A stretch of DNA of 33,189 nucleotides, taken from NCBI GenBank assembly GCA_020348885.1, contig CP070755.1:1498907-1532095 (forward strand), read 5' to 3'. Numbering within the stretch: position 1 is the stretch's first letter; each line of letters begins with the position of its first letter. Positions 7,907-33,189 of the stretch are shown here, one piece after another. Below the pieces are notes generated by a model. It did no database searches and had not been told where the DNA came from. It saw nothing but the letters and a program-made list of their open reading frames with translations. Source of the DNA: Candidatus Coatesiibacteriota bacterium (GTDB lineage Bacteria > RBG-13-66-14 > B26-G2 > WVWN01 > G020348885). The position numbers and the translations under genes are program-made.

Positions 7907-9151
7907 GTGGAAGACTCGTCGTCGCTTTTTTATTTCATCGGCGTTTGCGTAGGTTACGTCGTTTTTATCACGTTTCGTCTTTCAGCCTTATACTATATGA
8001 CGAGAGGGGAGGTGACGAAAGATCTCGGCGACAGGAACTCGGCGGCCGAAATTTTAATTCCCGATAGGGTATTGAACGGCTTGTTCTTGGTCGAAGTGGT
8101 CTTAATCTTGCTTGCCGCGGATGGGTTCCGTAGAGTGATAGGGCAACTGGCGCTCGTGGTACCGGAGGCCGTAAGTTTCGTCGTTTTCGCCGTCGTAGCC
8201 TTCGGGCTTCGCGGCGGCGCCAGGATGCTACTTCCCCGATCTGCCGCTTACTTCTTGGGAGCCTTCACCGCGCCGGTCGTAAAGCTTTTGGGTTATATAA
8301 TAACGCCATTCGTTTGGACGTTCGCAAAACTAACGAACCTGGTGGGGCTGTTGTTAAGGGCCGGGCGGCGCGCGGAGGCCGTCGCGCCCGACGCCGAGTT
8401 CTTTGAATTATACGCGGCCGAAACCGGCGCCGAGTTGGAAGAAGAAGAGAAGGAAATGATCGAGGCGATAATCAGCATCCGCGCTACCCGGGCCAGGGAA
8501 GTAATGGTACCGCGGGTTGACATCGTCGCGGTCCCGGAAACGGCAACCGTTAACGAGATTAAAGCCCTAGTCGTAAAGCACGGCTATTCGCGCCTGCCCG
8601 TTTTCCGCGAGAACGTCGACGACGTAATCGGAATTCTCCACGCGAAAGACCTCTTTGTCGTCGAAGGAACCGGGGTAGACGTAATTTCGTTGCTGCGGAA
8701 ACCGTACTACGTGCCGGATTCCAAGAAAGTAAACGAGATACTGACCGAACTTCAGGAACATAAGACGCAGATGGCGATAGTCGTCGACGAGTACGGCGGG
8801 ACTGCCGGGGTTATTACTCTCGAGGACGTAATAGAAGAAATCGTGGGCGAGATACATGACGAGTACGACGCCGAGGAGTTCACGTTCGAAAAATCCGCGG
8901 ACGGAAGCTACAGGGTGAACGCGAAGATGGACCTAGAGGAATTATCGGAGGAGTTGGGGATAGAAATCGCCGGCGAGGATTTCGAGACACTGGGCGGCTT
9001 CATCATAGCTCAAGAAGGGCAGGTCCCCGCCGAAGGCGAAGTTCTCGATTACGAGAACTTGGAGATTACGGTACTCGAAAGCGACGAGCGCCGCGTTTCG
9101 TCCGTCAGAATCAAGGTTAAACCGCCTACCGAGGAAGCGGCCGGGGAATAA
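7907..9151 (+). CDS. corC: CNNM/CorC-family membrane protein with CBS pair
   Basis: Hemolysin-C/CorC (CNNM) family membrane protein, associated with Mg2+/Co2+ export or tolerance. Of 414 residues, about 1-140 are hydrophobic membrane helices. An acidic linker EEEEKEMIEAI follows (around 180), then two CBS domains (VMVPRVDIVAV and the following segment; then TQMAIVVDEYGGTAGVITLEDVIEEIVGEI), then a CorC_HlyC domain (about 325-405). It starts with GTG behind a good ribosome site, 23 bases after the dgkA fusion. CBS pairs commonly bind adenine nucleotides. Its position at the end of a c-di-AMP operon invites the idea that nucleotide levels tune ion transport, but this is inference. Unlike E. coli CorC, it carries its own membrane region. 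Confidence 0.88.
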   Translation: MEDSSSLFYFIGVCVGYVVFITFRLSALYYMTRGEVTKDLGDRNSAAEILIPDRVLNGLFLVEVVLILLAADGFRRVIGQLALVVPEAVSFVVFAVVAFGLRGGARMLLPRSAAYFLGAFTAPVVKLLGYIITPFVWTFAKLTNLVGLLLRAGRRAEAVAPDAEFFELYAAETGAELEEEEKEMIEAIISIRATRAREVMVPRVDIVAVPETATVNEIKALVVKHGYSRLPVFRENVDDVIGILHAKDLFVVEGTGVDVISLLRKPYYVPDSKKVNEILTELQEHKTQMAIVVDEYGGTAGVITLEDVIEEIVGEIHDEYDAEEFTFEKSADGSYRVNAKMDLEELSEELGIEIAGEDFETLGGFIIAQEGQVPAEGEVLDYENLEITVLESDERRVSSVRIKVKPPTEEAAGE

Positions 9152-28669: not shown

Positions 28670-29347
28670 ATGAGGACGAGCATTTTCGTAGTAGTCGGAT
28701 TGTTTGTGGTGGCTACGGCCGCTTCCGCCGCGATGTTTAGCGACGGGCCTATCGCCCTTACGTCGAACGGCGGGTCGGACGAGACCAGGGCCGATTATGT
28801 GCTTTACTACCACGAGGGCATGAGCGGATGGGCTAGCGTCTGGACGTTTAGCCAGAACGGCCATGTGGCTACTTACTTCGACCCGCTTGATAACCTGGGC
28901 GACGATATCCATGAAGCGTATGAGATAGTCGGGGTAGAATCCGGTTGGCATAACGACTCCGGCGGCGATATCGACGTTAACCTGTATGTCTGCGCCGACG
29001 ACGACGGCGAGCCCGATTTCGGCAGCCCCTTGTTCACGCTCCCCGTTACTATCAACGATACTGATCCCTATTGGAGTCAATTCGACAGCGATGTCGATCC
29101 CCCGGTAGGCTTTAACTGCGGTGAGATGTTCTGGGTAGTATACGAGGTCTTCGCCGAAAATCCTCATCCCGCTTCCGACATGGATGATACTGACCCTCAA
29201 TACCACTCCTACATCGGCGACGAAGACGGTTTAACGTGGGACCTTTTCGGCGCGGATTGGAAACACAATGCATACGCCGATCCAGGTGAGAGTACCAACA
29301 ACGTCACGCCGGCTTCGTTCGGTCACATTAAAGCCAGCTACGAATAA
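28670..29347 (+). CDS. Secreted protein of unknown function
   Basis: A 225-residue exported protein with a clear signal peptide (TSIFVVVGLFVVATAASA, cleavage near residue 20). The mature part is acidic, rich in Asp, Gly, Tyr and Trp, with repeated aromatic/Asp-rich stretches and probable beta structure, and has only two cysteines (in LYVCADDDGE and VGFNCGEMFW), which could form a disulfide. I do not recognise the family and see no catalytic motif or anchoring domain. It is a single-gene unit: strong ribosome site GAGAGGAGAG before the ATG, its own promoter, operator-like repeats and a hairpin terminator 30 bases after the stop. That arrangement suggests an abundantly or conditionally made extracellular product. 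Confidence 0.75.
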   Translation: MRTSIFVVVGLFVVATAASAAMFSDGPIALTSNGGSDETRADYVLYYHEGMSGWASVWTFSQNGHVATYFDPLDNLGDDIHEAYEIVGVESGWHNDSGGDIDVNLYVCADDDGEPDFGSPLFTLPVTINDTDPYWSQFDSDVDPPVGFNCGEMFWVVYEVFAENPHPASDMDDTDPQYHSYIGDEDGLTWDLFGADWKHNAYADPGESTNNVTPASFGHIKASYE

Positions 29348-30860: not shown

Positions 30861-31839
30861 ACGCGCACAGATACTCGGTACCGGTTTATACGTCCCGCCG
30901 GACGTGGTTACTAATTTTGATTTAGAGAAGTTGGTCGACACGTCCGACGAATGGATAGTCGAGAGAACCGGAATACGGGAACGACGTTTCGTTGACGGCG
31001 AAACCGCCGCGTCGGATATAGCCCTAGAAGCTTCCCGGGTGGCCTTGGACACGGCCGGTATCGGGCCGGATGAGCTGGACCTGATAATACTCGGGACGGT
31101 TACGCCCGACTATGTATTCCCGGCGACGGCTTGCGTTCTCCAGGACTTATTAGGCGCCCGAAACGCGGCCGCGTTCGACCTTTCGGCGGGATGCAGCGGT
31201 TTACTCTACGGCATTAATATAGCAACCCAGTTCGTCGAAACGGGTAAATTCGAGAAGATACTATGCGTCGGCGTCGAGACGCTTTCGAAGATACTCGATA
31301 TGAACGACAGGAATACGTGCGTACTCTTCGGCGACGGGGCTGGCGTAGCTGTAGTTGGCGAATCCACCGACGACGCCGGGATACTTTCGACTTATATGAA
31401 GGCCGACGGGAGTCTCGTCGATATGCTTTATATGCCCGGCGGCGGTTCCAGGAACCCGTCTACCTACGAGTCCATAGACGCCCGGCTTCACTATATCAAA
31501 ATGGAGGGTCGGGAGGTCTTCAAGGTTGCCGTACGGATGATGGTCGAAGCCAGCAATAAAGTCCTGGATGAGGCCGGATACTCGGGCGAGGACGTGGACG
31601 TTTTTATTCCGCACCAGGCCAATATGCGAATTATGGAAGCGGTCGCCAAGCGAGTAGGCGTACCTCGGGAAAAAGTCTACGTCAACCTCGACAAGTACGG
31701 GAACACGTCGGCGGCGTCTATCGGTCTTGCATTGGACGAAGCCGTCCGTGACGGGACGATTGAGCCCGGCCACCTCGTGCTTCTGGTCGCTTTCGGCGCC
31801 GGGTTTACCTGGGCCGGTACGCTTATACGGTGGAGTTGA
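30853..31839 (+). CDS. fabH: Beta-ketoacyl-ACP synthase III FabH
   Basis: A 328-residue condensing enzyme that joins acetyl-CoA (or a branched starter) to malonyl-ACP to begin fatty-acid synthesis. The catalytic triad is intact: Cys114 in DLSAGCSGLLYG, His254 in IPHQANMRI and Asn284 in YGNTSAAS. The N-terminal SDEWIVERTGIRERR is the standard CoA-binding helix segment. The ATG overlaps the plsX stop by eight bases and the gene's end overlaps fabD by ten. Whether it prefers acetyl or branched primers is not readable from the sequence. Confidence 0.96.
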   Translation: MAKRAQILGTGLYVPPDVVTNFDLEKLVDTSDEWIVERTGIRERRFVDGETAASDIALEASRVALDTAGIGPDELDLIILGTVTPDYVFPATACVLQDLLGARNAAAFDLSAGCSGLLYGINIATQFVETGKFEKILCVGVETLSKILDMNDRNTCVLFGDGAGVAVVGESTDDAGILSTYMKADGSLVDMLYMPGGGSRNPSTYESIDARLHYIKMEGREVFKVAVRMMVEASNKVLDEAGYSGEDVDVFIPHQANMRIMEAVAKRVGVPREKVYVNLDKYGNTSAASIGLALDEAVRDGTIEPGHLVLLVAFGAGFTWAGTLIRWS

Positions 31840-32771
31840 CGTTGCCGTTCGCCTTCATATTCCCTGGACAGGGTTCGGCCGAAGTAGGTATGGGCCGGGC
31901 GATGGCCGACGCTTTCCCCGAAGTCCGCGAGCGTTTAGCCGCCGTAAGCGATTTATTGGGACGAAACCTACTCGATATAGCGTTGAACGGCCCGGCGGAA
32001 ACGTTGGTTGCTACCGAGAACGCCCAACCGGCGATCTTCGCTTTATCGGCGGCGTGTATGGACTTGTTCAGGAAAGGGTCGGACGTCGCGCCCGACTGGA
32101 CCGCCGGACACAGCCTCGGCGAATACACGGCGTTGTACTGCGCCGGGTCTCTGGATTACGATGCGGCCGCCCGGTTGGTCTGTCGCCGGGGCGAGTTCAT
32201 CGCGGAGGCGTGCGTCGAGAACCCCGGTACTATGGCGGCGGTACTCAAACTCGCCGACGGCGATGTCGAGGAGATTTGTAAAAAGGCTTCCGATGTCGGC
32301 CCGGTGGTCCCGGCCAACTTCAATACACCCGGACAGGTCGTGGTTTCGGGGAGCGAAAAAGGTGTAGCTGAAGCGTCCAGGTTGGCCGGTGAGCGTGGCG
32401 GCCGCGCGATACCTTTGAAAGTTTCCGGCGCGTTCCACTCGCCGCTCGTTACGGAAGCGAGCGAGAGGATGCGCGAGGTTCTGGCCGACGCGACGATAGA
32501 ACCGCCGATATGTATGTTCGTCGCGAACGCGTCCGGGAAAGCGGCGAGCCAGCCCGAGGTAATACGCGACCTATTGTATAAACAAATAACTCGTCCGGTG
32601 TTCTGGACCCACACTATGGACCGAATGCTAGCCGACGGCGTTGACACCTTCGTAGAATTCGGCCACGGTACGGTCCTGACCGGGATGGTTAAGAAAATGG
32701 CGCCCGGAGCCCGGCGGTTAAACGTTGGCGACCCGGAAAACCTCGAGAACGCTTTGAAGGAGTTATCGTGA
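31830..32771 (+). CDS. fabD: Malonyl-CoA:ACP transacylase FabD
   Basis: A 313-residue enzyme that moves malonyl from CoA to acyl carrier protein, feeding FabH and elongation. Visible motifs are FPGQGSAEVGMG (11-22), the nucleophile GHSLG with Ser95, the later substrate-binding Arg in CRRGEFI, and GAFHSPLV with the catalytic His near residue 202. The start is GTG at 31830, ten bases inside fabH; a TTG two codons later is possible. It overlaps the next small gene by four bases (GTGA). Confidence 0.95.
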   Translation: MELTLPFAFIFPGQGSAEVGMGRAMADAFPEVRERLAAVSDLLGRNLLDIALNGPAETLVATENAQPAIFALSAACMDLFRKGSDVAPDWTAGHSLGEYTALYCAGSLDYDAAARLVCRRGEFIAEACVENPGTMAAVLKLADGDVEEICKKASDVGPVVPANFNTPGQVVVSGSEKGVAEASRLAGERGGRAIPLKVSGAFHSPLVTEASERMREVLADATIEPPICMFVANASGKAASQPEVIRDLLYKQITRPVFWTHTMDRMLADGVDTFVEFGHGTVLTGMVKKMAPGARRLNVGDPENLENALKELS

Positions 32772-32866
32772 CGAAATCGAAGTCGGCGGCGTTTGTAGTT
32801 CTGGCGTTGGCTTTAATCTTACTGTTCGCCGGTTGTTGCGGGTATTCCGACGACGGCGGCACTTGA
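32768..32866 (+). CDS. Predicted 32-residue micro-lipoprotein
   Basis: A short reading frame, GTG to TGA, whose first four bases overlap the fabD stop (GTGA), the classic form of translational coupling. The product MTKSKSAAFV... has a basic start, a hydrophobic core (AFVVLALALILLFA) and a lipobox FAGC with Cys23, then CGYSDDGGT. Processing would leave a ten-residue lipidated peptide. It is too small for most gene finders. The overlap, signal structure and lipobox together make a real gene likely, but it has no recognisable family. Function is unknown; tiny lipoproteins of the entericidin type are a comparison of form only. Confidence 0.6.
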   Translation: MTKSKSAAFVVLALALILLFAGCCGYSDDGGT

Positions 32867-32932
32867 AGGGTCGTGGAGATGGCCCCGCAGTCGGCGGCGG
32901 TAAATATCTGGTAAACAACCGGGGTACTGTTA

Positions 32933-33189
32933 ATGGCTCATTTGAACGGTAGAAACGCGATCGTTACGGGCGGGGCCCGGGGCATCGGCCGGGCGATCGC
33001 CGCGGAGCTGGCGGCCCACGGCGCGGGCGTCGCTATATGCGACGTTCTTGAGGACGAGGTCGCGGCCGCCGCCGGCGAATTAACCTCGGAGCACAGCGTT
33101 ACCGCGAAAGGCTACGCGGTAGACGTTTCTGACTCCGCGCAGGTGGGCGACTTCGTCTCGTCCGTTAACGAAGAATTCGGTTCCATAGA
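32933..33189 (+). CDS. fabG: 3-oxoacyl-ACP reductase FabG, partial
   Basis: The first 85 codons of a short-chain dehydrogenase/reductase, cut by the window end. The NADPH-binding TGGARGIG motif is at 12-19 and CDVLEDE follows the second strand, with a DVSD segment near residue 66. Position after fabH and fabD identifies it as the ketoacyl-ACP reductase of the fatty-acid cycle. The catalytic Ser-Tyr-Lys residues lie beyond the window. It is 66 bases after the micro-lipoprotein and has no obvious ribosome site. Confidence 0.85.
   Translation, partial: MAHLNGRNAIVTGGARGIGRAIAAELAAHGAGVAICDVLEDEVAAAAGELTSEHSVTAKGYAVDVSDSAQVGDFVSSVNEEFGSI

Follow-up and report, generated by a model that had tools for sequence, protein, structure and literature searches.

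A frame of 32 codons between fabD and fabG (32768-32866, forward strand) is, on balance, best explained as a genuine, translated and lineage-restricted micro-lipoprotein gene that was added at this joint of a fatty-acid operon. It is a real feature and probably a young, translated micro-lipoprotein of likely modest importance. This reading is carried by the open frame, its overlap with fabD, a ribosome site, a lipoprotein signal with a lipobox, the persistence of the arrangement in two copies of the joint, and matches to lgt and lspA in the same genome. The frame is located near the end of the window, i.e., the whole analyzed stretch of 33,189 nucleotides.

The frame between fabD and fabG

In the window, rpmF, plsX, fabH, fabD and the start of fabG follow each other in one direction, and according to the listed starts plsX and fabH overlap by 8 nt and fabH and fabD by 10 nt. 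The fabD gene (31830-32771, + strand) encodes malonyl-CoA:ACP transacylase and matches NCBIfam TIGR00128 over its cut-off. The 5' part of fabG (32933-33189, + strand, 257 nt) is ended by a scaffold gap at the window end; its truncated product of 85 aa has sub-threshold matches to FabG and other SDR models, and TIGR01830 is passed by the complete FabG encoded at a second copy of the joint. A consensus scan of the fabD-fabG joint found neither a promoter nor a terminator.

The micro-ORF starts with GTG, ends with TGA and encodes the 32 aa peptide MTKSKSAAFVVLALALILLFAGCCGYSDDGGT, i.e., a lipoprotein signal followed by a tail of ten residues. Its start overlaps the fabD stop by 4 nt in the sequence GTGA (32768-32771, + strand), and a Shine-Dalgarno motif, AAGGAG (32757-32762, + strand), lies within the last fabD codons, 5 nt ahead of the GTG. 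By eye, none of the other starts from rpmF to fabG in the window has so clear a ribosome site; equally good sites precede acpP of the second copy (GGAGG) and other window genes, e.g., those at 7907 and at 28670. The peptide is composed of a K-S-K n-region, a hydrophobic core, F-A-G followed by Cys at residues 20-23, and the tail CCGYSDDGGT. The lipobox codons (32825-32836, + strand), including the codon of the lipidation residue Cys23 (32834-32836), are unchanged between the two copies. According to a rule of our own making, the Sec/SPII signature of a charged n-region, a hydrophobic core and a lipobox with Cys is present and is kept in the second copy. The preliminary description of this DNA had named the GTGA overlap with fabD, a proper signal core and the lipobox FAGC, all of which are borne out by the sequence at 32768-32866; the coupling geometry and the predicted ten-residue lipidated peptide between fabD and fabG are likewise present and persist in the second version of the joint.

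No family of Pfam or NCBIfam matched the peptide over its curated cut-off. The best PHROGs row was phrog_7486 (E 0.0014 and 0.011), and the best Pfam/NCBIfam rows were Neurokinin_B (E 0.0056, second copy) and invert_tail (E 0.085); none of the three was given any weight, because they cover mainly the hydrophobic signal stretch. The genome contains two matches over cut-off each for LspA (PF01252) and Lgt (PF01790), and lipidation is therefore possible. The two LspA matches are arranged in tandem (L133 and L134, G000:C1:875714-876717), and one of the two Lgt matches (L135 and L136) has an internal TGA.

We propose that the genes at the joint would be co-transcribed and that ribosomes ending fabD would start again at the GTG of the overlap (in the second copy, at the ATG), aided by the AAGGAG within the end of fabD. 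After export by Sec, the product would receive a diacylglycerol from Lgt at Cys23 and be cleaved by LspA, and what remains would be a ten-residue acidic lipopeptide in the envelope. The most likely job of such a micro-lipoprotein is a minor, non-essential envelope role, or none. For the functional suggestion of the preliminary description, that such a product could report on lipid supply or modify the envelope, no evidence was found, and a link to lipid supply beyond the position in the operon is speculation.

Chance expectation, the second copy and the relatives

The frequency of such signals was estimated with a lipoprotein-signal rule and cut-offs that are our own and were drawn up after the peptide had been seen. 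On both strands of the window, six of 1716 start codons pass the rule and belong to three genes; the other two genes read as lipoproteins, one of 284-298 aa that has four of the six starts, at 17.8 kb, and one of 253 aa (at 17114-). In a second-order Markov null (60 sequences of 33 kb each, read on one strand), three of 62,984 starts passed, and the chance expectation of such a signal is about 0.1 per 33 kb. Because the signal is rare and coincides with an exact position at the fabD stop and a clear ribosome site, an accident is unlikely, with the caution that the rule is post hoc.

A chance origin would mean that an insertion widened the fabD-fabG gap and that the drifting spacer happens to read as a signal peptide, in which case the frame may be translated at a low level without function. 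We consider this rather unlikely. The scarcity of such signals (3 of 62,984 null starts) speaks against it, as do the exact 4-nt overlap with its clear ribosome site and a second copy with the same start-stop arrangement. The kept start in this copy is, however, not independent evidence, because a fabD stop TGA after G or A is itself a start.

The second fabD-fabG joint is present in the same assembly at C1:409 kb, about 1.1 Mb from the joint of the window. It encodes the peptide MKSKLAAFVILALAVIVSFAGCCGYSDDGDT, in which the frame, the signal, the lipobox and a ten-residue tail (CCGYSDDGDT) are kept. The stop/start overlap is kept as well, shifted by one codon and now in the form of ATGA: a change of the TGA abolishes the old fabD stop and the GTG, and a change from CGA to TGA gives a new stop, which together with the preceding A forms an ATG. 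The ribosome site is AGGGAG, with 8 nt between GGAG and ATG. An off-frame reading that includes 32833-32952 is open in both copies and has radical changes in its upstream part.

Between the copies, the 99 nt of the micro-ORF contain 13 substitutions, with 5, 5 and 3 at codon positions 1, 2 and 3, respectively. In this single pair of sequences, the micro-ORF has no third-position bias (3/13), compared to fabG between the same copies, in which 19 of 26 substitutions are at the third position; nor does the single pair reveal the excess of synonymous changes that would indicate purifying selection, with six residues changed after the start. When 11 post-start substitutions were drawn at random, the frame stayed open in 78% of the draws and stayed open with the signal kept in 43%. 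Among the open draws, 39% alter at most six residues and 17% reach the observed BLOSUM62 sum; in the fabG control, as few changed residues were obtained in 0 of 20,000 draws. The missing third-position bias and the 43% of draws that retain an open lipoprotein-like frame are points in favor of a chance origin. The 34 nt from 32825 to 32858, which include the lipobox, are free of substitutions. Signal-peptide cores normally change fast. The substitution counts and the random draws for this copy pair are thus compatible both with selection on the protein and with its absence.

Overall, the codon scores of the micro-ORF resemble those of genes. Of 1557 off-frame stretches without a stop, 4.5% score as high as the window copy and 3.1% as high as the second copy, and among 806 gene stretches the two copies are at the 33rd and the 42nd percentile, respectively. 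The resemblance does not extend to synonymous choice taken by itself, by which the micro-ORF is not distinguished from the off-frame stretches, 24.8% and 23.9% of the 1557 being as high.

Relatives were compared in a set of 14 genomes of the phylum including the own genome, the nearest being four of the same order. In these four and in one genome of the same class, fabD is located directly before fabG, with gaps of 26, 26, 28, 24 and 41 nt; the gap in the window is 161 nt. A lipoprotein-like frame is absent from the joint in all five. The sixth order/class relative, of the same class (G006), has no FabD match, and in phylum members at the loci L011, L018, L021 and L025 fabG does not follow fabD within the 300 nt shown. 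Because the frame is absent at the joint in five relatives with gaps of 24-41 nt, we regard the micro-ORF as a lineage-restricted addition; its absence in relatives is also a point in favor of a chance frame. Of the features that the preliminary description had proposed to look for in relatives, the frame, the lipobox and the overlap recur in the second copy, which serves here as a close relative, but they are missing at the joint in the five order/class relatives, and the substitutions between the copies are without coding bias (3 of 13 at the third position).

Beyond the phylum set, a FabD scan of genome contigs, which may omit records closely related to the genome of the window, yielded 73 loci; the best FabD identity is 47%, and thus none of them looks like this lineage. 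Together with 29 genome loci (L003-L031), those FabD matches of the genome search that had a locus, 102 FabD loci were examined, the five relatives among them. A FabG motif follows fabD within 360 nt in 53 of these, and a lipoprotein-like ORF of at most 120 aa with a start between -30 and +200 nt of the fabD stop was found by the same rule in 0 of the 102. A scan of viral contigs with FabG found nothing. A DNA search of the own genome for a source of the micro-ORF or a repeat element (39 rows) gave only the two joint copies as strong matches. The third-ranked match (41 nt, 78% identity, E 0.019) sits in the apparent signal sequence (...VLFAGSCGEKD) of a frame that reads as an ordinary lipoprotein gene (L113 1471-2220).

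A possible hairpin ahead of fabG and the assembly of the joint

An alternative explanation, which we judge improbable, is that an mRNA hairpin matters and not the peptide. Its predicted 5' arm CCGGTTGTT (32829-32837, + strand) overlaps the lipobox codons and its predicted 3' arm AACAACCGG (32914-32922, + strand) lies just ahead of fabG, so that part of the fabG ribosome site would be buried. The micro-ORF would then be a coupling leader that brings fabD ribosomes into the hairpin, whatever its product, and the lipobox codons would be conserved because they form the 5' arm. The 3' arm takes in two of the four G of the Shine-Dalgarno-like GGGG of fabG (32921-32924), of which the hairpin would cover at least two.

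Several observations are in agreement with such a fold, and controls temper them. The spacer between the micro-ORF and fabG (32867-32932, + strand, 66 nt) carries six substitutions between the copies, one of them within 32867-32909. The stretch 32825-32909 is quiet, with two substitutions in 85 nt, despite being half non-coding; however, an equally quiet 85-nt stretch occurs in 6% of random placements of the 47 substitutions between the copies. Folded alone, the 113-nt stretch is predicted to form the hairpin in both copies, with a better fold than 198 of 200 shuffles for the window copy (z -2.3) and than all 200 for the second copy (z -3.1), but 24 of 2206 overlapping window stretches of equal length fold as well for their GC. 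A fold of equal quality was also obtained after synonymous recoding of the 3' part, in 12% of 1000 trials for the window and in 3.2% for the second copy, and after recoding of the whole ORF plus spacer in about 20% of the trials for both copies. The consensus fold of the two copies comprises 34 pairs, none of which is broken and two of which are one-sided variants that still pair, but two-sided (compensating) changes are absent among the 34.

The two copies differ in three longer contexts (161, 221 and 275 nt). In all of them the outer stem persists in the second copy, with eight of nine pairs at a probability of at least 0.83, whereas the window copy favors other pairs over this stem (pair probabilities of the stem 0.11-0.32). 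Here the lipobox arm is predicted to pair with 32852-32859, and 32918-32923 to pair locally with 32907-32912, hiding the fabG site instead. By one measure, the ribosome site of fabG is the least accessible of those at 23 starts of the window chosen by us, with a mean unpaired probability of 0.22 ahead of the start; the same measure is 0.30 for fabG of the second copy, above the 0.27 of the window fabD. In Rfam, no family reached its gathering score, and two rows were far below it (E 3.7 and 8.1). A search of the 14 genomes with a covariance model built from both copies gave, besides the copies themselves, one match in the own genome (E 0.04) and one in another phylum member (E 0.97); the former was rejected as a chance match, because it is located within an open frame of 661 codons and has a different fold. 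The hairpin also leaves the lipoprotein-like reading of the frame unexplained. The predicted hairpin between the lipobox codons and the ribosome site of fabG is a lead rather than a result.

Peptide and fold could also act in concert in an envelope-coupled leader: translation of the micro-ORF, begun by fabD termination, would melt the hairpin over the fabG site, and the fate of the nascent lipopeptide would set the FabG:FabD ratio. We regard this as very improbable.

Concerning the assembly, the window terminates (33189) at a 100-N scaffold gap (G000:C1:1532096-1532195), 257 nt into fabG, and the second copy starts directly after another 100-N gap (L002 1403-1502). The second copy contains 129 nt of fabD identical to the window, followed by 47 substitutions in the 435 nt that remain before the window end (~11%), as expected of strain variants that branch in an assembly graph. 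It continues through fabG and acpP and then, by eye, fabF and an rnc-like frame, and this order (fabG-acpP-fabF-rnc) is also read in one same-order relative. We infer that the two copies are strain variants set apart by the assembly and not a real duplication. The separate placement of the second copy is very likely an assembly effect, but the micro-ORF frame is not. The gaps and the step from identity to divergence would also suit a window end that is a mis-joined strain fragment, but this is the least credible explanation, as the frame occurs in both copies with natural-looking differences and the second copy runs on in the gene order of the relative.

Comparison with known systems

At its stop, a peptide of 32 residues would still be inside the ribosome tunnel, a difference from CutF. 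In the copper control of Rhodobacter capsulatus by CutF/CutO, an exported leader opens a stem-loop over the ribosome site of the next gene (PMC9973294). The micro-ORF resembles CutF in being a small exported product upstream and, if the hairpin is accepted, in having a stem-loop over the downstream ribosome site, but it is without the CxxxC, the proline-rich C-terminus and the downstream metal gene. Other exported leaders are SecM, MifM and VemP, which are regulatory export substrates, also called monitoring substrates (PMC7897499). They share with the micro-ORF the placement of a leader with an export signal before another gene, but the micro-ORF contains no R-A-P-G/P or other arrest motif that we recognize, and its downstream gene, fabG, is not a protein-localization factor. 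By eye, the tails CCGYSDDGGT and CCGYSDDGDT contain neither Pro nor Arg, and no C-terminal arrest or proline-rich motif of the kinds given in PMC7897499 and PMC9973294. The micro-ORF fits small lipoproteins better than exported leaders. An envelope-coupled leader, if true, would represent a SecM/CutF-like control of fatty-acid synthesis, with a lipid anchor that derives from the end products of the pathway.

If the micro-ORF is translated and lipidated, it would be a very small lipoprotein, with a mature part of ten residues, within a core metabolic operon; together with its absence from the joint in relatives, it would be a clear example of a gene born at a joint within an operon. If the RNA fold also acts, a testable translational link within the fatty-acid operon would be added. 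Otherwise, the micro-ORF is an ordinary unannotated small frame. Among the papers listed in the literature searches, none describes a lipoprotein at a fabD-fabG joint in its title or abstract opening, which is no proof of absence.

Small lipoproteins are known from several bacteria, e.g., Atu8019 of Agrobacterium and HP0135 of Helicobacter, and the entericidins are tiny lipoproteins. Another example is LptM (YifL), a small bacterial lipoprotein of about 6 kDa (PMC10567701). The LptM model of NCBIfam, NF047847, gave 8.9 and 9.3 bits (cut-off 27.7; E 1.6 and 1.2) with the micro-ORF peptides, and only the signal was matched. The micro-ORF resembles LptM, Atu8019, HP0135 and the entericidins in its short product, its Sec/SPII signal, its lipobox and its small mature part. 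Small lipoproteins as a class are well known, and the micro-ORF would add one more, which differs from LptM and the other small lipoproteins in a mature part of only ten residues.
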